NCBI RefSeq assembly: GCF_022965805.1
Contig: NC_133106.1
Location: 34,027,913-34,091,912, forward strand
Direction: 5' to 3'
From: Primulina eburnea
Taxonomy: Eukaryota; Streptophyta; Magnoliopsida; Lamiales; Gesneriaceae
Length of the DNA stretch: 64,000 nt
A model generated the notes under the pieces. It did not search any database. It was not told the origin of the DNA and worked only from the letters and a program-made list of their open reading frames with translations. Position numbers and translations under genes: made by a program. Each line of letters begins with the position of its first letter. Position 1 is the first letter of the stretch. This document shows, piece after piece, positions 2,632-63,212 of this stretch.

Positions 2632-3275
2632 ATGCCAATGTCTGGAAACCGGGATCCCTATGCTAGGATTGAGTCTAGTCTAAAATGTAGAGTCACGAGT
2701 TTGAGTGACAGTTATATCGATTGATATTGATGGATGTTGAATGATGTTCCTGATTGGTACATGCTTAGAATAGATTTATTCTTGATATTGAATTATGTTC
2801 CTGATCAGGGTACATGTATAGAATATGATTTATTCTTGTAATGGATTTATATCATGATTTTGATATATGATAGAATTTTCTGTTATATGCTTTTATATTG
2901 TTTATATGATGGCATGTATACATGATTTATACTGGGATATTTATATCTCACCGGAGTTATCCGGCTGTTGTCTTGTTTGTATGTGTGCATGACAACAGGT
3001 GGGCTAGGATCAGGGTCAAGAAGAGTACGAGGCTGGACTAGATAGCGTGGAGATCCGGGCTTTGAAGCAACTTAGGATTCAGCACCGACTTGTAGTTGAA
3101 CCTAGTCGGATTAATGTAGATTATACAATAATTGTATGTTATGTTTAATATGTAATTTGAATTTAATTACATTACGTTTCCACTGTTTAATTTAAGAAAA
3201 AAAATTTAGACCATGTTCATTATACTTGATTAAAAACACAAATATACTAAATGGAGGAAGTACTAAGGGATGTGA

Positions 3276-3443
3276 TAAAAACTTGCGTGAGACTGTCTCA
3301 CGGGTCGTATTTTGTGAATTGAATATTTTATTTGGGTCACAAATGAAAAAATATTACTTTTTATTCTAAGATGATTACTTTTTATTGTGAATATCGGTAG
3401 GGTTGACACGTCTCACAGATAATGATTCGGAAGACCGTCTGTC
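3276..3443 (+). mobile_element. GTCTCAC MITE, copy 1 (degenerate 3' end)
   Basis: Member of the roughly 180-bp family described in the findings: starts 'aaaaacttgcgtgagac', has the central 'attactttttattgtgaata' and 'ggttgac' blocks. The right end has decayed (gaagaccgtct) and no target duplication is visible. Confidence 0.75.
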
Positions 3444-9566: not shown

Positions 9567-9940
9567 AGTTTCTTTCTTGATTTTCTTTTTAATTTAATTG
9601 AGGTGATTGGTTTCAGAAGTAATGCACGTAGGGACGATGGAACGAAATTATGAAGTTGGATACGATGTGTGGCTTTCTTTTAAATTTTATATATAGTATA
9701 GGGTAGGTATTAAGGCTGGTTCTTGGAAATTAAGTTTTGATTTAAATTTTAATAGAAATGATTGAAAATTTTGTGATATTAACGCGTGGATTTGTAGGGG
9801 GAGTTTTTTTTACTTCTAGAAGGCAATGCCTTAAATTGTTGATACTAGTTCATGCTGTGATAGTAAATATGTGAAAGTTGAATGTCGCGTACTAAATTAT
9901 GATAGCAATAATAATGTTTAAAAGTTCTTAAAAAAAAAAA

Positions 9941-10120
9941 GAGTAGGTCTCTTGTAAGACGGTCTCACGAATCTTTATCTGTGAGACGAGTCAATCCTAT
10001 CGATATTCACAATAAAAAGTAATATTCTTAGCATAAAAGTAATATTTTTTCATGGATGACCCAAATAAGATATTCGTCTCACAAAATACAAACCGTGAGA
10101 CCGTCTCACATAAGTTTTTG
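9941..10120 (-). mobile_element. GTCTCAC MITE, copy 2
   Basis: Reverse orientation: 'gagtaggtctcttg' at the left and 'cataagtttttgc' at the right, with the common 'ttcacaataaaaagtaata' centre. Both flanks are runs of A (11 and 14), consistent with a target duplication in an A tract. The A runs themselves cannot prove it. Confidence 0.85.
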
Positions 10121-10675
10121 CAAAAAAAAAAAAAAATGATGTTTAAAAGTTGCCGAAATAAGAAATATTTAGATGAAATTGAAATATCATTTAAATTCTC
10201 GAGTCGAAATAATCTAAGCTCCATTTTTTTTATCACACACTTATTGTTAATCATAGTTGAAATACGACGTTTTCCTGTCATTTCTTAGTAGGCAGGCTAA
10301 CGAGATTGTGGAGTTTTTCAAATGCCTTTGTTTTCATGAGGTAGACGTTGGACGCTTTTAAAGTTGAAATTAACTCTTCTTTGTATGAAATATGAATTGA
10401 GAATCTTCAATATTTTCGAGTAGACCTAAATATTATCATATCTATACTTAGAGTTATTAAATTCTAATCAAGCTTGAAAATTTATCGCACCCTTGTTTAC
10501 TTTTCAATAAAATTAAATATTCTTGAAATTGTCCCTTTTCTGATTTTCTAATCGATGCGTATAATAAAAATCAAAATGACAATAGAAATATAATATTATA
10601 TATTGTTACTATATTTTTGTGGTCAACTAGGCTTTTTATACTCGTTTCTAACTGCCCTAGATATTATTTGTCGAT

Positions 10676-21150: not shown

Positions 21151-21576
21151 ATTAAGAGGAAGTTATATGATATACTACTTCATTATTCACTATAATCGAT
21201 GAAGTAAAACACATTTATTACTTCGACACCGGTCCAATTCTGGACCGGTTTTTCTCCCAAAACCGGCCAAAAGACTTCGGTATTTTCAATACTACAACTT
21301 CGGGTATTATGCGAAGTAAAAGGTACATCTATTACTTCACGTCCTGGCTTCCGTCTGTTTACATGTCGAAGTAGGTTTGTTGGTGCTTACATTAATTTTA
21401 ATTAATGACGCTTGACACGAAACATGTGAAAAATATTGAAATAATTATTGCTATCGCGGATAATTATTGTAGAATTCGAGTCAAATATTTGATCTACAAA
21501 AATTTTATAATCTTTTATATATCCTTGATCGATTGGATCTAAAAATTAGATTTACGAGTGGATGGTATTGTAAATT

Positions 21577-21757
21577 GAGTAAGTCTCTTGTGAGACGGTC
21601 TCACGAATCTTTATTTGTGAGACGAGTCAACCATATCGATATTCACAATAAAAAGTAATATTCTTAGCATAAAAAATAATATTTTTTCATGGATGACTCA
21701 AATAAGAGGTGTCTCACAAAATACAACCCGTGAGATCATCTCACACAAGTTTTTGTC
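21577..21757 (-). mobile_element. GTCTCAC MITE, copy 3, with 9-bp target duplication
   Basis: 181 bp, reverse orientation. The 9-bp direct repeat TTGTAAATT lies at 21568-21576 and 21758-21766, exactly at the family ends 'gagtaagtctc' and 'tttttgtc'. Confidence 0.93.
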
Positions 21758-22429
21758 TTGTAAATTTAAGTTCCATAATATATATTATTTTTTTAAAAAA
21801 AAAAAAGTTAAAGCGACGAGGTCAACTACATATCAGTTGAATAAAAGTATAGACACAAAATCTATGGTCCGTGTAATTTGCATAAATTTTAAATTAAATG
21901 ACTTCTCCCACAAGATAACCGAAGTATAGAAAATTAAGTTCATGTTATGATCGAAAATTAATTTAGAGGGGATGAATAAATAATATCAATCAAAATTTAT
22001 AAAATATTTATGTTTGATTAGTAACGCTGAAATAAAATTATTGTCAGTCCGTCTTTACTTCGAATACTTATTCATTTTGAATTGTTGAACTCTTCTAAAA
22101 CAATTTATTCGATCAGCTCTCACATCTCAAAAATAATAATTTTTTTTATAGGTATATTTTATAAAATATGATTTTGTATCAAGATAAAAACAAATTTTTC
22201 CATTACACCAATAATGATAAAGATTTGCTTTGGGGAAAATTCGAACAAAATTATTAATTTACATGTACCACCAAAAGTTATCATCGTGATTCGTGTATAA
22301 CATTGTAAAATGAATATTATTCGGTGAGTTAGTCTCATAACACTGCATCATTTTTCCTTCCTTCCGACGACCATTAATGGATTCAATGTTCGGATATTAT
22401 CTACAGGTAAGGTGAAATAAATCTATTAT

Positions 22430-50158: not shown

Positions 50159-50430
50159 TTGATAGTTTACATATATTATATTGACTTCTTTGAGCAACCT
50201 ATTTGTATGACAAGCCTAATTTGTGAAGGAAAGCAACGCACTTCTTTTGCAAACAAATTACTCCCACCAAAAAGATAGAAATACAGAGGATAGTGAAAAT
50301 AGTTCTTATTTGTGTTTTTCGTTTTCAAAATTCAACAGATGTTTCATAGAAAATAAATTCAATTATTTCATTAATTTTTAATTGGCCCATAGAGAGTATA
50401 ACTTTCGGACCATATTATTATATATGGGCT
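50159..50430 (+). repeat. Duplicated segment left of the eIF4A-like gene
   Basis: Matches 54496-54780 in the same orientation: 'ttgatag', 'acttctttgagca', 'gtttgtgaagga'-like, 'aaattactccca', 'agaaaataaattcaa', 'tataactttcgga' and 'atatgggc' in the same order, with many differences. Confidence 0.8.
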
Positions 50431-51627: not shown

Positions 51628-53544
51628 ATGGCCGACGAAAACCTTCATTTCGAAGGAAACATGCGTGCCATTACCTGTTTCTCCGACCTTGGGTTGAACA
51701 AGAGCCTTCAAAACGGAATGTTACATCGTGGCTTCGAGAGTCCCTTCGGGGTTCAGAAGCGTGCGCTTCTCCCCATTATCAACAAAACAAATGTGGTGAT
51801 TGATGCTCCCGAACGTTCCGGACGATCCACAACTATAGCCATTGCTGTATGCCATTTCATCAGCTCCAACACCTCCGACCGCTCGGGGTATGATTTTTTT
51901 TTTGTCGCTCTGTGGATATCATAGCACTTGTAGTGGTTTATTGCCTTTTTTCGAGTGTTTCAATTACCAGTAGTTTCTATGAACTCTAGTTTACTGATTT
52001 GAATCTCGAAATCCTCGATCAATCAATGGACAGTAAAAATTACAGGAAAAAAAAGAAGAAACGCACAGTTTTTGGTTCGATTTTGAATTGATCTATATCC
52101 ACGGGATTTACTAAAATGATCGATCAATCCAGATGATACACACGACAACAATGATATGAATTCACTCAGATTATAGCTCTTCTTGTTGTTACTAAATTCT
52201 AATAAATCTTTTTTTGTTTTTAGTCCGAGAGCTTTAGTACTGTTACCTACCAGCAAATCAGCTTCCCACATGGAAGAACTGATTAAGGCAGTTGGCGCCC
52301 ATTCTAGAAACAACGTGTGCAACGTTGACAGGCGCAACCGCATGATCAAACGAGGGGTCGTACTCGGTTCTCCTGACCACGTTCTGGACACCTTTGAAAA
52401 GCAGCCTCTTGTGGCCACGTCAATCAGGTTTTTGGCGCTGGTTCGTAAGCTATTCTGATGTAGTTCCTCTTTGTTTTTTTATTTTGTTTTTATAAAACTA
52501 ATTTTACTTCCTGTTCCTTAGGATTGCTTTGATGACATGATTGAAAATGACCATTCAAATGAGCTAAAAGGCATACTCAGATGCCTTTCTCGGAAAATCC
52601 GGTTGCTCGTGATATCTAGAACTGATGTTTCTGGAGTTGCGGAGATGCTGGATTTCATGGGATTGAGTGACGCTCTGGTCATTCGAGCATATCGTCGTCC
52701 CGTATCAGTCATAGAGGTATTTGGAAGTATTTCCCAGAGTTATTTGTATGGATCTTGTGTTAACTCTTTTTTGACTTAATGACAGGGCATCCGTCATTTC
52801 TTTGTCCGCGAGCAGAAGGAGAAGCCTAAATATCATGTTTTGCTAGACGTGTTTCACGCTTTTAAAGTCTCCAAAATTATTATATTTCGCAACTCTAACA
52901 ATCAGGTTTAACTTTCTTTGCCAATGTTTTCAAATTTTTTAATATTTTTGTGAGTTATTGATCAATATTGTGTTGTGTTCTGTGGCAGGTTACTAGTCTG
53001 CGAAAAAAGATGCAAGCAAGTAACTTCGAAGTTTTAGAGATTAAAGGAAATACGTCGGCAGAGGAGTGTGATCGACGAATGAAAGAACTAGGCTTAAAGA
53101 AATTCCTTGTCACGACGGATGCTCTTGCGTCCGAACTTGTTGATGAGGAGGTTAGTTTGATTCTCTTTGTCATTAATATTATTTCATTCATTTATGAAGC
53201 TGTTTCTTAACTTTTGTTAGTCTTTGTAGGTTTCTTTGGTGATCAACTACGATCTTCCCGTCGACGCTCGGCAATACCTTCATCGCACCGGGTGGCATGG
53301 GCGCTTTTCTAGCTATGTAATTGATTTCCTTTTTTCTTTGTCTTGCTATCCAGTTTTGTTACTCTTATAGTAGTTGCTCAATATCCCAAGTCTAATGAAT
53401 GCATTTAACAATGATATACAGGTTACTGTTATAAATTTTGTTGGTGAAGAGGACTGGAAGCTGGTCCAATTGATCGAGAAGACCTACAAGATCAAGATTG
53501 ATCAAATGACACCGAACGTCTATGATGCTACTGTAAGGGACTGA
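51628..53544 (+). CDS. Divergent eIF4A/eIF4A-III-like protein lacking DEAD-box catalytic motifs
   Basis: Seven exons, 51628-51887, 52224-52440, 52522-52716, 52786-52905, 52989-53150, 53230-53316, 53422-53544; all GT-AG, all in frame, 387 residues (eIF4A is about 410). The whole two-lobe helicase order can be followed: FSDLGLNKSLQNGMLHRGFE, a retained Q-motif Gln in GVQKRALLPIINKTN, ALVLLPTSKSA, LDCFDDM, GIRHFFVREQKEK, KIIIFRNS, FLVTTDALASELVDEEVSLV, INYDLP and YLHRTGWHGRF. Catalytic motifs are changed: motif I GxGKT becomes SGRST (Walker Lys lost), Ia PTRELA becomes PTSKSA, TPGR becomes SPDH, DEAD becomes DCFD, SAT becomes SRT, ARG-D becomes ASELVD, HRIGRxGR becomes HRTGWHGR. ATP hydrolysis is therefore unlikely. 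LLPIIN and VINYDLP resemble eIF4A-III more than eIF4A. Introns are kept, so it is not a retrocopy. It could be a dead-helicase regulator or a fading duplicate; the open frame favours the first. Confidence 0.85.
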
Positions 53545-54495
53545 TTTTCGTGTTTAATACCATATGTTTAGGTTACGTTACGTATAATATTAATTAGATA
53601 TTTGTCCAGTGCTCCACACGACAGAATTTTGTTGTTTTAGAGTATCCAACCAGTATTTCAAGGGATGCTACTATAACTGTGGCAGACTATTTCTTAAAAG
53701 CAATAGAATGTCATAGCTGCTCGGAATGTATCAAGTAGTCGAGTCACGATCTTGAACCTCATCTGTTTTCTAGGAAATTAAAAAAATGGAAGGAGTAAAG
53801 TAGTCACAAATCAATTATGAGATCAAGCAATGAGGTTTTTAGGAAGATTGACAAGGAAATATAATCTGAGAACCAGTGGTACACAACCTCCTAGTTTGAG
53901 GGGTGGCTTGATTAGAACTCCAACTTACCTGCCTTGGGTGGTGAAAGAAGTTAGGCACATCTTTAGATTAAACAGGATAGGTTCACAATAATGTTGTCTT
54001 TTTGCTTACTTGATGAATCAACTAGCTTATGTCCATCTGTTGACAGTGAGAAATAGCTGCAACCTCTTATTGGCACACATACGATTTTCACAATCGACAA
54101 AAATAATTGCCTTTTAATGGTAATTCGTAAGTCATTCAAGGTCAACGAGTAAGGTGATTGAAGAAAGTACCTACAAACTGAGTGACAGCAGTAGTAAATT
54201 CATTCCCTGGATGTTGAACTGCATATTTTGTTTCATGCATGACATTACTTGCTCTAAGAAATACAAAATCTGATCCTCTGTATTGGGCATGAGCAGTCTT
54301 CGACTCCTTCTCATTAATTGAAGTAGAAACTGCAACTTTGTGTTTGCAGGATAATTTGGGTTTGTGCTGATGATGCTAGGACTGGATCGTACGGCAGGAA
54401 ATAGATCCCTATAGGATTTTTGGTCAATCTTTGACAAGCTACTCTTTTGATACACATGTCCTAATATACATGGTCTAAACAAGCATTTCTGGTAT

Positions 54496-54780
54496 TTGAT
54501 AGTGTTTACATGACATATATGATATTAACTTCTTTGAGCAAACATGCCTAGTTTGTGAAGGAACGCACTTATCTTGCTAATTAAATTACTCCCACACAAT
54601 ATACAAACCAAGCGTTTGCCAAAAAGATTGAAATACAGAATTTATGTAGGTTTTTAATATTTGTTTTCATTTTCAAAATTAATCGGACGTTTCCTAGAAA
54701 ATAAATTCAAGCACCCTTTTCATTAATTTTGAATTGGGCCATGGAGAATATAACTTTCGGATCATATATAAATATGGGCA
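54496..54780 (+). repeat. Duplicated segment right of the eIF4A-like gene
   Basis: Partner of 50159-50430, same orientation, so the eIF4A-like gene lies between two diverged direct repeats about 4.3 kb apart. Confidence 0.8.
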
Positions 54781-54952
54781 TGGTGATATAAATGGTTATC
54801 TAACCTTGGTTAACTTTTCAATTTGGAAAATGAGCTTTTGTAATGTATATTTTTGAAAAATGTTTGGACCGGGTCCAAACATTTTTAGGTATAAAACATA
54901 TATGTTTTTTTAACTTGAAGTTTTAAAAATTAAATCCGAACCGTTAACCAAA

Positions 54953-55428
54953 AATTTATATGTTCATGTAACTTGAAGTTTTAAAAAATTAAGTCCGAAC
55001 CAATTTAGATTATAAAGCTTAGAAAATATATTGATGTGAAATAATACATAGTAAAATGTATTAATTAAACAAATTAGGTAATTAGATAAGAAAATTGAAA
55101 AGTCACGTAAATAAATAAATAAATAAGACATTAATTAAGTAATAATTGAGAAGGGTAACCAAGTAAATTCACAATTGAAACTCATATATAAATTTATATG
55201 TTCATGTAACTTGAAGTTTTAAAAAATTAAGTCCGAACCAATTTAGATTATAAAGCTTAGAAAATATATTGATGTGAAATAATACATAGTAAAATGTATT
55301 AATTAAAAAAATTAGGTAATTAGATAAGAAAATTGAAAAGTCACGTAAATAAATAAATAAATAAGACATTAATTAAGTAATAGTTGAGAAGGGTAACCAA
55401 GTAAATTCACAATTGAAACTCATATATT
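54953..55428 (+). repeat. 238-bp tandem duplication, nearly identical
   Basis: Unit 1 about 54953-55190 and unit 2 about 55191-55428, period 238 bp, only a few differences seen (for example 'ttaaacaaatt' against 'ttaaaaaaatt'; 'taataattgag' against 'taatagttgag'). A partial third copy precedes them at 54912-54948. Confidence 0.92.
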
Positions 55429-55435
55429 TATAATA

Positions 55436-55485
55436 GTATATATAGGTATAGATATAGATAGATATAGATATAGATATAGATATAA
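55436..55485. repeat. (GATATA)n-type microsatellite
   Basis: Repeats of 'tagata' and 'tagatatagata' directly after the tandem duplication. Confidence 0.85.
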
Positions 55486-55529
55486 TCATAAAAGTCTGCT
55501 TTTTTTTTTTTCACTTTTTCCCACCTAAA

Positions 55530-56051
55530 TAGAGATGTAATCGAGTCGAGCCGAGCCGAACTCTTGAATGTTTGAGCTTGACTCGTTTATAATCGAGCCG
55601 AGCTCGAGCTTTATTTAACGAATATATGCATGGCTCGCGAGCTTATTCAAGCATTTATCGAGCCTAAACAAGCTCAATAAATATGAATTATACATTTAAA
55701 TTTTCATTAAATTAATTAAAAATAAATTATATATTTAAAGAAAAATACATTATTCTTATTAAAATTATTAAATTTATTATAATAAATAAATTTAATATAT
55801 TTTTCTATATATTTCATAAATATAATATGCAAAATCAATAAATCAAATATCAAAACTATTATTTTTCATCTAAAAGATTACTCATGAACTTATCAACGAA
55901 CATGTTCACGAGCTAACGAGCCGAATAGAATAATGTAAAGCTTGGGTTTGGTTTATTTATCTTAACGAGCCTCATTAAACGAACTTAAACGAGCTTTTAT
56001 CGAATCGAGTTTCGAATAGCTCTCAAACGATTTGATTCATTTACATCCCTA
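55530..56051. mobile_element. hAT-like non-autonomous element with 8-bp target duplication
   Basis: 522 bp, ends TAGAGATGTAAT and ATTTACATCCCTA (inverted), flanked by CACCTAAA at 55522-55529 and 56052-56059. Rich in 'cgagctcgag'/'gagccgag' words near both ends. No transposase. The 8-bp duplication and TA-G ends fit the hAT superfamily. Confidence 0.9.
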
Positions 56052-58107
56052 CACCTAAACACAAATACCATAAATAGAAATAACCTCAAATATGATGAAA
56101 ATATGAAGTCATCTAACAAAATATAGTCCCCTGAATTTAAATATATATAACCAGATTCCAGAACATATTTATTGACAATTGTGCCATCGGTTTCTGCATC
56201 AATTGTCATGTAATTTTTTTTATTTCTTTTTTTGTAAAAGTGACAGATCTAAATGCTTTTATCTTTCAGTTTCAATCAATATATCCACCTGCATGGCTGC
56301 ATGCAATTTCCAAAAAAGAAATTTCAATTTTCGGTGAAAAAACATTTTATAAAAAAATATCAAAATACGATGTAATATGAAAAGTAACCGATCAATATAT
56401 TGTCCAATAATATTATACTAGGAAAGGAAACCTCAATTCTTGAGGTGTCTCACCCATATTTATAGATCAACATATGATCATCTATATATTTTTTTAATAG
56501 GAAGTACACATGTGTTTATATTTGAGTAGGTCTTATTTAATAATTTGTTTTTTTGTTAATGGGTAATAAATAATTAAATATGAGTTAAAAAAGTAGTAAT
56601 TTTTTTCGTAATTAAATGATATAGCTAACAATAAACATTGCAAGTTTTTAAGGTATTAATAAAAAATAATCGTGTCAACTATATATGCTAAAGAAACAAA
56701 AATTGGGAGATAACTTGTGTCAATGTTAAATATGAGAAATGTGAAGTGAATTTTGTAATATATTAAAAAATGAGGTAAATTGGTTTATTTATGTGTGCTA
56801 TATTTGGATATTAGATGAAATGTTATATGTAGAAATTTATAAATTTAAGAGTTTGTAAATTTTGACATTTTAAGCATGTTAAAAAAGTGTGTACATATTG
56901 TAACGTATAAAAGTTTATTGCTTCTATTTAAAAACTGATTTATTTAACCAGAACAAATACTTTGAATATTATAGTTTTTGGTCAAAGCCATATGTATTAT
57001 GATTACAGTGATTTTTATTTTTATATTTGTAGTTACACAATCATTATTTCAAGTTGGAATTGCGCTTCAGAAAATAAAAAAAAAAACGCGAAAGTAGAAG
57101 GAATCTATAGTAGTGCAAATAGTTAGGAAAATGACTAAGTATGCTCGTATTAAAAGCTAGTCATATATCTACTCCGCAAATAGAGTATAATTTGATAATA
57201 GGATATCCATATTTAATTCATTGTAGCGCCTATAAGGTTTTCAAACCTAATAACATTATTGATGTTGGTAGATTTATGAATTTAGTAACTTGCATTTAAA
57301 TATTAACTGTGATATGATCTATTAAAAAATCAGTAAGAGCACATAAAACCTTAGTTTAATTAAAAAAATTGAAAACATGTTATTGTAGACAGGAGGATCT
57401 CAAAGATATATTGTTATTTATTTAAGAATTCAGTTGACATAGTTATGAATTTGGTAACCTCAATTTATAAAGATATTTAAACATGAAAGTTAATTTAATT
57501 CGTAAGACAACCGAATAGATTACTACAACGAGAGAATAATAAAAGTAATTAATTAAATTATATGAATAGAAGTTATTTGGAGTTCAGTATCATGTAATTA
57601 AAAAATGTTTATTTTTCAAATATAAAAGAATCGTTAAAAAATTTTAAAACAATTATATACAAAAATCTTGAATGCTTCGTAGAGATTACTAAATTTTTTA
57701 TACTTGAGCTTATGGACAGGAGCTTACTAAAAATTTTACACGAGCTTACTAAAATTATCATGTTTTCAATTTATAAACTGAAACTTCAAATATTTCGTTT
57801 AATTTTTCCCAAAAAAATACCGTATGCAGAACCATCTAAATTTCTAAACTGATTTAATTGACAAGACAATTGACACCGGTTCAATTGTACATATACTGAT
57901 ATTTATTATTTGATATATATCTTTATAATGTTTATTTTGGCCCGCGGCTCACTTAGCCGAATGTATAGAATGATACATGATATGAAATTCCAAACCGGTT
58001 CTGTCGCACAAACATGATTGATTTAACATATCACATAGGATTTTAAAACATTGCATAAAATAACACATGCAGGGAGTGAGATACTACTTCTTATATAAAA
58101 TGTTCAA

Positions 58108-58280
58108 GAGTAGGTTTCTCTCCCGAATCTTTATCTATGAGACGAGACAACTTTACTGATATTCACAATAAAAAGTAATATTCTTAGCATAAAAAATAAT
58201 AATTTTTCATGGATGATTTAAATAAAAAGTCTGTTTCACAAAATACGACTCGTGAGATCGTCTCACACAAATTTTTGTCA
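58108..58280 (-). mobile_element. GTCTCAC MITE, copy 8 (diverged)
   Basis: Reverse orientation, 'gagtaggtttctctc' to 'caaatttttgtc'. The left palindrome has decayed and the flanks no longer match clearly. Confidence 0.8.
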
Positions 58281-58477
58281 AAGATCAAATACTTCATTGT
58301 TAATTTTCTTACGGGCCCAAATCACCCTAAACCATCGCATGCAAGACAGTCTTTACCAGAAAAAGATTCTACCACCACAAATTGCGCAAAAGCAAATTCC
58401 TCGAACAACAGAATTTGAACAAATGAAAAGGATTCAAACAAGATTACCAGAGATCCTATTGAACGACTCAGATGGAG

Positions 58478-58529
58478 AACAAACCACTTATAATTCAAGA
58501 AAAATTCCTTCATCCAATCGTCTTCTTTT

Positions 58530-58593
<64 letters not shown>

Positions 58594-58643
58594 CAAACCA
58601 CTTATAATTCAAGAAAAATTCATTCATCCAATCGTCTTCTTTT

Positions 58644-58692
<49 letters not shown>
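58478..58692. repeat. 114-bp duplication containing (AT)n tracts
   Basis: A 55-bp unit starting 'aacaaaccacttataattca' at 58478 recurs at 58592 (period 114). Each copy ends in 'cttttcaat' and is followed by a long (AT)n run (58532-58591 and 58647-58692). Confidence 0.92.
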
Positions 58693-58696
<4 letters not shown>

Positions 58697-58852
58697 TTGA
58701 AACATCTTAACGAAGAAAAACAATAGACCCATAATAACTCATTGAAAATTTTAAAAATCACTTAATAATAAACATATCAGGAAAAAATGAGAAGCTAACA
58801 ACCATCCAAAAATTAATAACTCTGGCGTTAGGGATTAGCAATTGCCAGATTC

Positions 58853-61008
58853 CTAACCAGTCACCGAGCATTTCTTGTTAAATTCGTCATAAAGCTTCTT
58901 GTTCTCTGCGAGTTGGGCATCCGGATAGAAGGTGTCTGCGGTCAGAATATCAAAAAATTCAGGTCAAGTATAAGTGAAATTGAAAGAGCAACAGATGACA
59001 TGATGTTTACTGTCCAGATATACCTAAAGCAATCTCGGGATCAATTTCATCCTGAAGGGAGACTTTATGTGTGACTTGATCTTTCGGCTCCACCAGATCC
59101 AACTCTGGTCGAATGGCTGGGCACCCCTGGATAGATAAGAAGATGTATCACGAAAGAATTATAACTCCACGGACTTTAATATTTCTACAAGTAAACTAGA
59201 CTTGAAATTTGGACTCTCCGCCGCATAAGATTTTTATACGTGAGGTTTCAGAGCTCACCTGAAACTTTGCCTCTCGCAACTCAAAAAGATGCTCAATAGA
59301 GAGCTGGACCAATATAGTTCCTCCATGATGAATACCTCGTAATCGCTCAAATATGTCTGTCGGATGAAAAATCCAAAAGTGTGCCACTCAGAGATGCGTC
59401 ACGTCATTTGAAAGGGCACAACATAATAATGAAAAATGCATGTGTTATGGCATGCATACTTTTTACACCATCCAACCACACATTATGCAATAGCGGCAGT
59501 CATCAAATGTCAGACAATCCAACGTCACAAAATTAAAGGATTGGTTAGTTAAAGGAATTTTAGAAAACAAATTGTCTGCATTTTCATTCACTTCGAAATT
59601 CGGATTCCATTTTGCAATTAGAAATGTGCCCTCAGATATCCATAAAAAGGGTAAAACCCCAAAATGGAGACACAATAAGAATGATTCTGTGGCAACCACA
59701 GAATCATACCATGTCAAACATCAGATACCATCAACAAAAAAGAGAGACGATATGTAATCATCAACAAAGAAGTGAACCAGAGACCAGGGCAGTGGCCCAT
59801 AGTTTCTCACTTGTACTCCTCATGAAAATAGTTAGGGTTCGATCCCTCCCCCACCCCCTAGATTAGGGTTTAAAAAAAACAAACAAAGAAGTGAACCAAA
59901 CAAAAAATAGAAGCTAATATCAGATTAATGAAAAAGTAGAAGTGCCCCCCACTGCATAAAACTGCTCTGGCTAGTACCATGGAATTGCAGAGGAGAAAGG
60001 TCTTGCAGCGCAGAACCACACTCAGTAAGGAATCCAACAGCCACTTTAACATTTTCATAGATAGGTTTTTCCAACAGCAATGTTACCACCTCAAAAGCAA
60101 TAAGCTCGTGGGCTACTCGCTGGTTGACCAGGTGAGCAATAAATTTGACTGGAGCGACAAGTTCTCGCTGGTTGACCAGGTGAGCAAAAAGTTTGACTGA
60201 AGCGAGAAGTTGTGGCTGCCAAGAGAAGTTTCACCATAAGCAGACCTAACATTGTTTAAATAATGGAATTGGAACCAGTGAGAGAAACTGAAGTGCAAAC
60301 CTTATCATTGAGCTTAAATGCCCTCTGTAGCTGAAAAACAATCCTCCTCAACAAAAGATCACCAACTTCAGGGAACTTGGCATTAACAACAGCAACCAAT
60401 CCAGCAATCGCATCTGTGCTGGGTAGCCAAAGAATTTGACACTCCATGCATGAACGACAGAATAAACCCTTCCCTCGAATCAGATTCACAGCAAACAACT
60501 CCGGAATGATAATCTTAATATTAGTAGCAGCCACTCTATTCAACGAGAACGTCATACTCTTCCTCATTTCATCCCAAGTCATTCTCTGATATTCAATGGT
60601 GCTTTTAACTTGAATATCCTTCATCGTTGTGGCCAACATATGTGGTGTTATATAAACTCCTCCACTCCTCCCTGAATTAGCAGCTATGTCCCTGCCCGCA
60701 TTCTCATCGGGCTTTCCCACTTTATCGGCCTCACTCGGACTCGTGTCTCCCTCGTTTTTAGTCATAATTCGACTCTCTTCCATTCTCTCATCCATATTCT
60801 TCTTTTTCCGCTCCATACGTACATCGCCATCCTCATCACGCAGCGTTTCCCTTCCTTTCGTTGTGCACTTTCGCCACATTCTATTGTGATCTTTGCCATC
60901 ATACTCGGCAAGATGAGTTTTTTCACCCGATATCTCCCTATGCCGACCCCGACTTTCCTGTTTCTCATCCTCGCGTCTGCTGGAATCACTGCGACGAACT
61001 TTGCCCAT
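58853..61008 (-). CDS. CWC22-like protein, MIF4G region only (no MA3 domain)
   Basis: Five exons, complement of 58853-58935, 59024-59126, 59259-59356, 59978-60215, 60301-61008; GT-AG introns and frame all agree; 409 residues. N terminus (about 1-115) is charged (RRSDSSRREDEKQESRGRHR). From GGVYITPHMLA the CWC22 MIF4G fold can be followed: YQRMTWDEMRKS, TNIKIIIPELFAVNLIRGKG, LFCRSCM, LVAVVNAKFPEVGDLLLRRI, AHLVNQRVAHELIA, VAVGFLTECGSALQDLSP, FERLRGI, REAKFQ, then RPELDLVEPKDQVTH and LQDEIDPEIAL. It stops soon after (FNKKCSVTG), where full CWC22 continues into an MA3 domain and a long tail. A 48-bp in-frame duplication repeats AHLVNQR (see 60116-60211), and the segment after RGI is shortened and altered. 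In yeast and animals CWC22 is a spliceosome factor whose MIF4G domain binds eIF4A-III. Possibly a functional short paralog, possibly a decaying copy; introns argue against a retrocopy. An earlier in-frame ATG at 61068 exists but lies before the family start. Confidence 0.85.
59780..59881 (+). mobile_element. tRNA-derived SINE with perfect 17-bp target duplication
   Basis: About 102 bp in intron 3 of the CWC22-like gene (opposite strand), with A-box-like 'agtggcccatagtttct', B box 'gggttcgatccct' (59835-59847) and an A-rich tail. The duplication AACAAAGAAGTGAACCA is perfect at 59763-59779 and 59882-59898, showing recent L1-type target-primed insertion. Confidence 0.85.
60116..60211 (-). repeat. 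48-bp in-frame tandem duplication inside the CWC22-like exon
   Basis: Units 60116-60163 and 60164-60211 ('ctcgctggttgaccaggtga...'), five or so differences. Each encodes 16 residues ending in AHLVNQR; the frame is kept. Confidence 0.93.
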
Positions 61009-61611
61009 TCTTCGATGCAACAACCCCTGATTCCCTGAAACCACAAAAAACTTTTGGAAAAAAAACACCCACAGATCAGAGAGTGGAGGAAAGGTGTAGC
61101 TGCTTTCGGGGGAGAGGCTTGTTTTGATCTTTTGGACGGGATATATATATTCTAATATTTTTGATATGCTTTGGTATTTTGAAATGGTTGTTGATTTAAA
61201 TTCGCTATCATCTTTTTGTTATTTTTGATAATACAGTGTGTTTGATTATGAGATATATTCGGTCAAGATTTTAGAAGAATTGATAAGGCGTATCTTGATT
61301 TATCATATGTCATATTATTCTTGATTAGTAGGAATATGGAAAAGTGTTCAGGTTTGTGTTGCTAATTTCCTAAAACTTTATGATCGATAACGAAAGAAAA
61401 TATAATTTCTATATTAAATTTATTCTTCAAGATATATCTTCTTGAGGATATGATATTTAATATTTATTATGATTTTGTTTTCTTAAATAATTTATGTTAA
61501 GATTTTATTATGATATAATTTCTTCTTTAAATTTAATTTTCTATAGATATTATATTTAAGATAAAGATATTCTAGATATAATATTTATAATAATGATTTA
61601 ATGAGATATTA
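61009..61611. other. 5' flank of the CWC22-like gene
   Basis: Contains the presumed promoter and leader (61009-61140), then AT-rich sequence that may be the start of the LTR-like segment to the right. Confidence 0.45.
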
Positions 61612-61755
61612 ACTGTGGAACGGGTCAATCTTACCCATATTCACAATAAAAAGTAATACTTTTAACATAAAAAATAATACTTTTTCATTGATGACCCAAA
61701 TAAGAAATCCGTCTCACAAATACGACCCATGAGACCGTCTCACACAAGTTTTTGC
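61612..61755 (-). mobile_element. GTCTCAC MITE, copy 9 (left end lost)
   Basis: Starts within the family at 'aactgtggaacgggtcaatc' and runs to the intact right end 'cacacaagtttttgcc'. Confidence 0.85.
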
Positions 61756-63014
61756 CCTAATAAAACTCTTACTTTCCTTGTGCAGATAAAAGTATATATC
61801 TATAAATAAGATATCAAGGACATCATTGAGCCTCTTCCCTCTTGATCATACACATTAGGGGTGATCACGGTGCGGTTTTGCGGGTTTTTTAAAAAAATTC
61901 AAACCGAATTGCCATATGCGGTCGGTTAGTATTTTGAAAAAATAATCGCGGTTTTACATGAAGAATTAGTATTACGGTTTTTAGCGGTTTTTAGCAGTTG
62001 CGGTCGGTTTACGATTTTTTTAATGAAAAATATTAGAACATATATTTTAATTTATTTGAAAACAACAACAATATAGTGTCTTCAAATATAAATTATAGTT
62101 CAAAGCATATAAAGATAAAAATAGATAAAACAATAATCAAGATTTAAAACTAAATTAATAATTTAACACAACATACTTACAACAAAAATGACATTTATAC
62201 TACTTTATCATTTTTCTACTTTCAAACTTCAAACTAAATATTATAGCAAAAGAAATAAATAATCTAATAAAATATTAATATGAAGAATAATTAAGAAGAA
62301 GATAAGTTTTATTTGTAAAAATAAAAATTTTGAAGAAAGTTGAGATTTAATGAATGACAATTTCATAATTTGAATATAGTGTTTACAAATTATTATAATT
62401 CTAGGCCAAATATTATGGCAAGCGGTTTAGGCGGTGCGGTTTGGTGCGGTTTTTGGCAAAAAAAAATAACCGAACCACGTATGCGGTGCGGTTTACGATT
62501 ACTATTTTTAATCGCGGTTTTTTTTAAATATTATGAAAAACGGTGCGGTGCAATTCGGTTCGGGCGGTTCGGGCGGTTAATAAAAAAATTTGATCACCCC
62601 TAATACACATATACATGCACTTGTGCACGTCGTGGGATGTCAGAGAAATAATTCTTCAAAGACGTTGCTGATTTGAAGAGTGCAGATACTGCGTATTGCC
62701 TTGATTGTTGGAGACATCTCAGACAACATCCGTGATGAAGTTGGCTGAAGATCGTTTTGTTGCTCCAAAGTTTTTGGCTCATGTTTTTTGCTTTCTTGCA
62801 TAAGTTTTAATTCTGGTTATTTGTTTTTAGAAAGAATTTATTTTCTCAACTTGTTGAGAAAATTGATTTTTGTGAAAATCACTAGTTCTAGTTTTCGTAA
62901 ACGATTTGGTTTTCTAGTGATTAATTTTTGCCATGAGGTGTGCATATTTAATCTTGTCCATTTATTTATTTAAAGTGAATTTGTGTTACTAACTTTAATA
63001 TTCCGCTGCATATT
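61756..63014 (+). mobile_element. Probable Copia-type LTR fragment, host of two insertions
   Basis: The parts outside the hAT-like insert (61756-61855 and 62611-63014) read like a plant Copia LTR: TATA-like 'tatctataaataaga' at 61798, 'gtgcacgtcgtgggatg', and 'ttccgctgcata' at the end. No primer-binding site, gag or pol follows. Borders and target duplication not determined. Confidence 0.4.
61856..62602. mobile_element. hAT-like non-autonomous element with 8-bp target duplication
   Basis: 747 bp with inverted ends TAGGGGTGATCA and TGATCACCCCTA, flanked by ATACACAT at 61848-61855 and 62603-62610. Both subterminal parts are dense in 'gcggttt'/'ggtgcggt'; the middle is AT-rich. No transposase. 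Confidence 0.93.
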
Positions 63015-63021
63015 GTCTTAA

Positions 63022-63203
63022 GGCAAAAACTTGTGTGAGACGGTCTCACGGGTCATATTTGTGAGACGGATCTCTTATTTGGATCATCCATGAAAAAGTA
63101 TTACTTTTTATGCTAAAAGTACTATTTTTTATTGTGAAAATGGGTAGGGTTGACCCGTCTCACGGATTATGACCCGTGAGACGGTCTCATATGAGACTCA
63201 CTC
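63022..63203 (+). mobile_element. GTCTCAC MITE, copy 10, with perfect 9-bp target duplication
   Basis: 182 bp, 'ggcaaaaacttgtgtgag' to 'gagactcactc', flanked by TTGTCTTAA at 63013-63021 and 63204-63212. The best-kept copy in the window. Confidence 0.95.
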
Positions 63204-63212
63204 TTGTCTTAA

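Follow-up and report, generated by a model that had tools for sequence, protein, structure and literature searches.

The stretch of Primulina eburnea DNA analysed in this work (64 kb, hereafter the window) contains two genes that converge tail to tail, with a gap of about 5.3 kb from stop to stop. The first, a DEAD-box-like gene on the plus strand, has its ATG at 51628 and a stop ending at 53544 (seven exons, 387 aa); the second, a CWC22-like gene on the minus strand, runs from an ATG at 61008 to a stop ending at 58853 (five exons, 409 aa). The six introns of the helicase-like gene and the four of the CWC22-like gene have GT..AG ends, and every join is in frame. The layout, strands and coordinates proposed by the first-pass annotation, as well as the in-frame joining of all the inferred exons, were thus confirmed. 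The features of the locus are the following:

51628..51887, plus strand: helicase-like exon 1; motif I altered, Q motif retained in part; match in the plant's own genome
52224..52440, plus strand: helicase-like exon 2; motifs Ia, GG and Ib altered; donor GTTCGT
52522..52716, plus strand: helicase-like exon 3; motif II DCFD, motif III SRT; lacks the intron found at codon 211 of the C14 gene
52786..52905, plus strand: helicase-like exon 4; RecA2 begins here; D270 retained, D273 replaced by H
52989..53150, plus strand: helicase-like exon 5; motif V altered
53230..53316, plus strand: helicase-like exon 6; motif VI altered
53422..53544, plus strand: helicase-like exon 7, stop codon included
60301..61008, minus strand: CWC22-like exon 1; charged N terminus and first half of MIF4G; N171 kept, K172 replaced by R
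59978..60215, minus strand: CWC22-like exon 2 (gene model)
60116..60211, minus strand: 48-nt tandem duplication in the CWC22-like gene; two copies, 92% alike, adding 16 aa within MIF4G
59259..59356, minus strand: CWC22-like exon 3 (gene model)
59024..59126, minus strand: CWC22-like exon 4 (gene model)
58853..58935, minus strand: CWC22-like exon 5, truncated; homology to the other copies is lost shortly before the stop; no MA3

The donor of helicase-like exon 2, at 52441, looks weak, and a rival donor (GTAAGC), the use of which would shift the frame, lies 4 nt downstream. A direct repeat, 70% identical, flanks this gene (50169-50429 and 54513-54779). Rfam gave 0 matches in the window, and a tblastn search (1e-3) revealed no further copies within 100 kb on either side of it. 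With regard to captured fragments, or to a transposon carrying both genes, only common kinds of repeats were found, this direct repeat among them.

It is known that eIF4A-III is an mRNA-marking helicase, normally loaded by CWC22, and that its intact DEAD-box motifs make it an ATP- and RNA-dependent clamp. The helicase-like protein has a full-length two-RecA architecture (Pfam DEAD, 4.2e-13; Helicase_C, 2.7e-13). The claim that every main catalytic motif is changed was upheld by the comparison with human and Arabidopsis eIF4A-III: all 11 motif stretches are altered and none is intact (motif I, GTGKT to RSGRS; motif II, DESD to DCFD; motif III, SAT to SRT; motifs V and VI also altered, the Q motif partly kept).

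Sequence alone does not prove the origin of this gene. Its product is 34% identical to the eIF4A-III encoded on contig C14 (130/379), the highest-scoring solved structure is eIF4A-I (178 vs 168 bits), and two site counts favour eIF4A-III over eIF4A (26 vs 14 and 23 vs 14), whereas the sites fixed in eIF4A-III point to eIF4A instead (6 vs 9). The tree favours eIF4A-III (74/74), and a placement with eIF4A is compatible with the AU tests (p 0.15-0.29). The intron positions settle the question. Indeed, all six introns match introns of the C14 gene in phase, five of them at the identical column and the first one three columns off its counterpart, beside an indel; the C14 gene possesses seven introns and eight exons, the intron at codon 211 being the one missing from the window copy, while the eIF4A-type gene in L008 differs in intron positions. 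Hence the helicase-like gene derives from eIF4A-III, the relationship originally claimed for it, and an origin from eIF4A is rejected on these grounds. The rice eIF4A-III genes OsRH2 and OsRH34, which are 99% alike and whose products both bind MAGO and Y14, have eight exons each, like the C14 gene (PMC4830029, in part). With respect to eIF4A-III (DDX48; RH2/RH34 in plants), the window copy therefore shares architecture and intron phases and differs in its low identity, its altered motifs and one missing intron.

Neutral change to the divergence of the helicase copy would have introduced about 17 stops; since no simulated run was free of stops (0/200), the copy is not the product of simple decay. 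Outside the motifs, residues are kept at 49/118 invariant versus 44/176 variable positions (five reference proteins; Fisher p 0.003). Compared with its full-length paralog on C14, the gene keeps its frame and shows a pN (0.416) lower than pS (0.715), although its synonymous divergence (2.3) is near saturation and makes the dN/dS ratio a rough one. Two relatives of this gene, both with stops inside some of the matched stretches, are located on the same contig (C6:34.90 Mb, more precisely 34.9026-34.9052 Mb), with no CWC22 match beside them. Motif II is also lost in the one at C6:34.905 Mb (NCCD), which implies that the loss predates the split between this relative and the window copy. Canonical eIF4A-III is strongly conserved (C14 versus C15, dN 0.011 over 244 codons, exons 1-4), so that a long-kept family devoid of the catalytic motifs would represent a plant pseudoenzyme, raising the question of the role that an eIF4A-III fold might play without ATP.

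As for the second gene, the MA3 domain of CWC22 is needed for splicing in human. The CWC22-like protein shares with CWC22 the charged N terminus and MIF4G (Pfam, 6.6e-8; CWC22-type chains match at up to 242 bits), its MIF4G is 71% identical to the family (190/268), and its exons 1-5 correspond to exons of the other CWC22 copies of this genome; it differs in lacking MA3 and the C terminus and in carrying the 16-aa duplication. Homology with the other copies stops inside exon 5, and a Pfam search of 53545-58852, with three frames read on each strand, found no MA3 match, confirming that the gene ends after the MIF4G region. The break adjoins a 1-nt shift, as in decay. The 48-nt duplication, absent from the exon-2 pieces seen of five other CWC22 copies, may disturb the MIF4G fold. 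No relatives were detected in viral or prokaryote contigs (exon 1 as query) or in plasmids (whole protein as query).

This truncated frame has nevertheless remained open. Neutral change to about 71% identity should leave about five stops in MIF4G, and the 409-aa frame contains none (simulated runs to 73% identity gave 4.8 stops, with 3/500 stop-free; those to 66% gave 5.9, with 0/500). The omega of this gene lies below 1: it is 0.33 over 268 codons, and 0.47, with a bootstrap range of 0.30-0.74, when only the 207 codons on which the references concur are counted. Evolution is fastest in the part of MIF4G encoded by exon 1, where the RecA2-binding helices are expected to lie (omega 0.87, 93 codons). 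Judging from these coding-sequence comparisons, past selection acted on both reading frames, and the data support the view that both genes are real and diverged, and not simply decaying. According to a different explanation, the two genes might be chance neighbours, an old and real pseudo-helicase standing beside a spare CWC22 copy that is now decaying, with no joint or decoy function. This would fit a genome in which CWC22 is multi-copy (five other multi-exon loci and a lone exon), at least one other copy carrying a stop (L039), and it would also fit the exon-5 break, the internal duplication and the relaxed omega of the window copy, as well as the dead-helicase relatives devoid of a CWC22 neighbour; however, it has to face the stop-free frame and a bootstrap range lying entirely below 1, and we consider it a serious but somewhat doubtful possibility.

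A further issue concerns the way in which the two genes came together. The other eIF4A-III genes map on C14 and C15, contigs different from that of the window, and the other CWC22 copies on C9 and C4 and, 32 Mb from the window on its own contig, at C6:2.2-2.3 Mb; no locus holding both genes was found in the genome. Since these loci are not side by side, the linkage observed in the window is not a trivial one, a point that the first-pass annotation had left to be checked. Its alternative suggestion, a decaying segmental duplication carrying both genes, might be in agreement with the presence of introns in both, which makes both of them DNA-level copies. However, it does not fit the unlinked sources, the kept frames or the unequal synonymous divergence (2.3 for the helicase copy versus 0.4-0.5 for the CWC22 copy; fourfold sites at identical residues differing at 41/58 versus 22/70 or 17/69), and it was rejected as highly improbable. 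The CWC22 copy is far younger than the helicase copy, and each apparently arose on its own.

On this basis, the explanation that we favour, and that we regard as about evenly poised between right and wrong, is that an old pseudo-helicase and a younger MIF4G-only CWC22, unlike in both origin and age, perform separate mimic and decoy roles. The former is an eIF4A-III paralog that has lost its ATPase and RNA-clamp motifs while remaining under frame and fold constraint, and it belongs to a group of at least three related copies on the contig; the latter is a partial CWC22 copy that has retained the start and MIF4G and was broken inside exon 5. If both are presently transcribed and translated, as we infer, the CWC22-like protein might bind normal eIF4A-III without spliceosome delivery, thus lowering the loading of the exon-junction complex (EJC), and the pseudo-helicase might act separately as a non-clamping mimic competing for eIF4A-III partners. 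That the two genes lie side by side most probably does not account for what they do. Human CWC22(110-409), which ends at about the same residue as the window protein in the alignment, inhibits splicing-dependent EJC assembly in vitro through eIF4A3 binding; CWC22(1-409) does not restore splicing, and CWC22(110-665) with the binding mutation is not dominant negative in human cells, for which the authors invoke a weak spliceosome affinity (PMC4482076, in part). This last result counts against the explanation, as do the high omega of the exon-1 part of MIF4G, the 16-aa duplication, the decay-like break, the weak donor of helicase-like exon 2, the stops in the two helicase relatives and the near-saturated dS of the helicase copy. 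The human fragment is an experimental construct and not a natural gene, and binding by the window protein is putative; a natural protein ending near the end of the inhibitory fragment would offer a direct test of a plant EJC-loading decoy.

The contact residues bear on the idea, put forward at first pass, of a co-evolved pair. In the form considered here, the two products would bind each other, or jointly the canonical partners, as a linked EJC antagonist. N171D/K172E in human CWC22 is an eIF4A3-binding-deficient change, and the joint change of D270/D273 on the helicase side stops CWC22 binding (PMC4482076, in part). In the window, the CWC22 side is conserved in kind (N171 kept; K172R, charge kept), a point that also favours the decoy explanation, and on the helicase side D270 is kept and D273 has become H. 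This idea draws on the adjacency of paralogs of known direct partners whose sources are unlinked, for which simple arithmetic (6 CWC22 loci, 3 dead-helicase copies, 20-kb reach, 812 Mb) gives a chance of about 4e-4 before allowing for post-hoc choice. Nevertheless, the D273 change, the very different ages of the two genes and the missing linkage at C6:34.90 Mb speak against it, and a co-evolved pair appears unlikely. A still bolder version, which we deem quite unlikely, would see in the locus a linked EJC antagonist built from two paralogs of the plant's own parts, a non-clamping eIF4A-III and a MIF4G-only CWC22 that captures eIF4A-III but does not deliver it; such an antagonist might adjust splicing or nonsense-mediated decay in a reproductive or sex-related context.

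A literature search among papers available without subscription found no report of a dead eIF4A-III/truncated CWC22 pair, and no dead eIF4A appeared in the title or abstract start of the papers that one of its queries listed. A CWC22 paralog with a role of its own is Mdmd, the male-determining gene of the housefly; it is an animal gene that keeps more of CWC22 than the window copy does, and it is not known to have a dead eIF4A-III beside it. Among plants, EcAPO2 of Eragrostis curvula is, like the window copy, a CWC22-like gene; it is tied to a genetic locus and found only in apomictic plants, and the text examined names no helicase partner (PMC13126312, in part). Unlike the window copy, the EcAPO2 orthologs keep both MIF4G and MA3 and mostly have eight exons (PMC13126312, in part).

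The two converging genes that the first-pass annotation had proposed, with exons joining in frame, were borne out by the models that we rebuilt from the DNA:

51628-53544, + strand: eIF4A-III-like gene (helicase copy), 7 exons, 387 aa
61008-58853, - strand: truncated CWC22-like gene (CWC22 copy), 5 exons, 409 aa

In both genes all introns are GT..AG and the frame is kept across all joins; the exon-2 donor of the helicase copy (GTTCGT) appears weak, and the use of a rival GTAAGC lying 4 nt downstream would shift the frame. Pfam matched DEAD and Helicase_C in the helicase copy, which among solved proteins comes closest to eIF4A-I (178 bits) and then to eIF4A-III (168 bits); in the CWC22 copy it matched MIF4G, and there the best solved relatives are CWC22 proteins. 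The CWC22-like label was correct, and so was the eIF4A-III-like one, in this case because of the gene structure.

As far as the origin of the helicase copy is concerned, the sequence alone is not decisive. It shares 33.9% of its residues with Arabidopsis eIF4A-III and 31.2% with the human one; for eIF4A, the values are 31.1% (Arabidopsis eIF4A-1), 32.5% (human eIF4A-I) and 29.7% (yeast). Where eIF4A-III has a fixed residue that eIF4A lacks, the copy agrees with eIF4A-III at 6 sites, with eIF4A at 9 and with neither at 21, the corresponding counts for sites fixed in eIF4A-1 being 6, 3 and 24; at the 124 sites that differ between the eIF4A-III of contig C14 and Arabidopsis eIF4A-1, they are 26, 14 and 84. 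Placement of the copy with eIF4A was not rejected by the AU tests (p 0.15-0.29). It is the gene structure that settles the origin. The genome harbors two eIF4A-III loci (C14:1444358-1448237 and C15:1056120-1059760), the C14 gene encoding 408 aa and having 7 introns. Five of the 6 introns of the helicase copy fall at the same alignment columns and in the same phases as in C14, and the first one keeps the C14 phase, 3 columns off and beside an indel, whereas the eIF4A-type gene in L008 has its introns at other positions; therefore, the helicase copy descends from eIF4A-III. Motif II of the C14 gene is DESD, a form reported for dicots in PMC6280879. In the same gene, GC in place of GT opens the intron after exon 6; the C15 locus shows, within C15:1056960-1057265, a stop and a frame disturbance where exon 6 begins, C14 being intact.

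The strongest part of the finding is what appears to be an old, constrained and catalytically dead eIF4A-III copy, together with its relatives. All 11 motif stretches that were compared carry changes, and no stop occurs in frame; a neutral simulation leading from the Arabidopsis protein to the identity of the copy yielded a mean of 16.6 stops (minimum 7) and stop-free runs in 0/200 cases. Outside the motifs, the copy keeps 49/118 positions invariant in five references vs 44/176 variable ones (Fisher p 0.003); inside them, it keeps 26/54 invariant positions, and the motifs are therefore neither specially kept nor specially lost. In the comparison with C14 (130/379 residues identical, pS 0.715, pN 0.416), dN/dS is 0.61/2.3, a rough guide only, since a dS of 2.3 is near saturation; here and throughout, dN/dS was obtained by simple counting methods within one genome. 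The own-genome search retrieved two relatives on C6, the contig of the window:

C6:34902636-34903600, + strand: helicase relative 1
C6:34904196-34905210, - strand: helicase relative 2

They are convergent, lie 0.8 Mb from the helicase copy and share 47-68% identity with it by exon; both may themselves be damaged, since several matched stretches contain stops. In one exon stretch of 221 bases, motif II is NCCD in relative 2 and DCFD in the helicase copy, so that the loss is older than their split; in this stretch 42/65 residues are identical (dS 0.80, dN 0.25), the last part aligning poorly.

The tests made here contradict the alternative offered by the first-pass annotation, a decaying segmental duplication embracing both genes. 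The sources of eIF4A-III lie on C14 and C15, and the other CWC22 copies are on C9, on C4 and 32 Mb off on C6. Moreover, where the residue is identical, 41/58 fourfold sites differ in the helicase copy and 22/70 or 17/69 in the CWC22 copy, so that the former is much the older of the two unless local rates are very unequal. No CWC22 match was listed by the own-genome search beside the helicase relatives at C6:34.90 Mb.

The same search revealed five other multi-exon CWC22 loci (L036-L040; C9:16.20, C9:16.47, C6:2.24, C6:2.31 and C4:3.09 Mb), read as pieces. It also gave a lone exon hit at C9:16.51 Mb, and C14 carries a distant MIF4G gene. Some of the five may be decaying, since exon 2 of L039 is interrupted by an in-frame stop and the match to L038 breaks off early in that exon. 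By translation only, MA3 starts in exon 5 of L038 and L040; the homology of the CWC22 copy with L038, L039 and L040 stops in exon 5, past a 1-nt deletion and just upstream of its own stop. The copy is 71% identical to this family (190/268 MIF4G codons), with dS 0.50 and dN 0.163 against L036, vs 0.20 and 0.024 between L036 and L040. Over 268 codons its branch has an omega of 0.33; restriction to the 207 codons with agreeing references, a filter that lowers dS, gives 0.47 (bootstrap 0.30-0.74), and on these agreeing codons the parts lying in exons 1 to 4 give 0.87, 0.38, 0.27 and 0.23. Neutral simulations yielded 4.8 stops at 73% identity (stop-free runs 3/500) and 5.9 at 66% (0/500).

According to PMC4482076, N171D/K172E in human CWC22 or D270K/D273K in eIF4A3 abolishes binding, CWC22(110-409) blocks EJC assembly in vitro via eIF4A3 binding, and CWC22(1-409) fails to restore splicing. 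In the CWC22 copy, N171 is retained and K172 is replaced by R; judging from the alignment, the copy ends at about human residue 409, like the inhibitory fragment; thus, it is plausible that it might act as a natural decoy for eIF4A-III. However, its exon 1 evolves fast, it carries a 16-aa duplication, and a mutant MIF4G-MA3 segment of human CWC22 is described in PMC4482076 as not dominant negative in cells. Binding of the helicase copy to any CWC22 seems doubtful, since D270 is kept but position 273 is H. We think that each gene, if active at all, acts separately on the canonical machinery. The co-evolved pair envisaged in the first-pass annotation is a possible, less likely reading.

The window (C6:34027913-34091912, in an assembly of 812 Mb and 1224 contigs) also embeds, with Pfam support, a respiratory burst oxidase, a LURP-one-related gene, a family 9 glycosyl hydrolase and a WRKY gene. 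A search of the 100 kb on each side gave no additional copy of the helicase or the CWC22 gene, and Pfam matched neither MA3 nor any other domain in the 5.3-kb stretch that separates the two genes. The repeats are the following:

50169-50429 and 54513-54779: two directly repeated stretches, 70% alike, flanking the helicase copy on both sides
54952-55427: tandem duplication of 238 nt (99% alike) in the stretch that separates the two genes
3273-3440, 9936-10146, 21572-21761, 58119-58281, 61597-61759, 63013-63204 and others: short element of ~140-200 nt, repeated throughout the window in either orientation

The short element looks like a MITE, a label of our own. Lastly, a Ricin-B-like lectin stretch at 495-965, with weak Pfam matches below the cut-off, has a 38%-identical relative directly upstream of the window.
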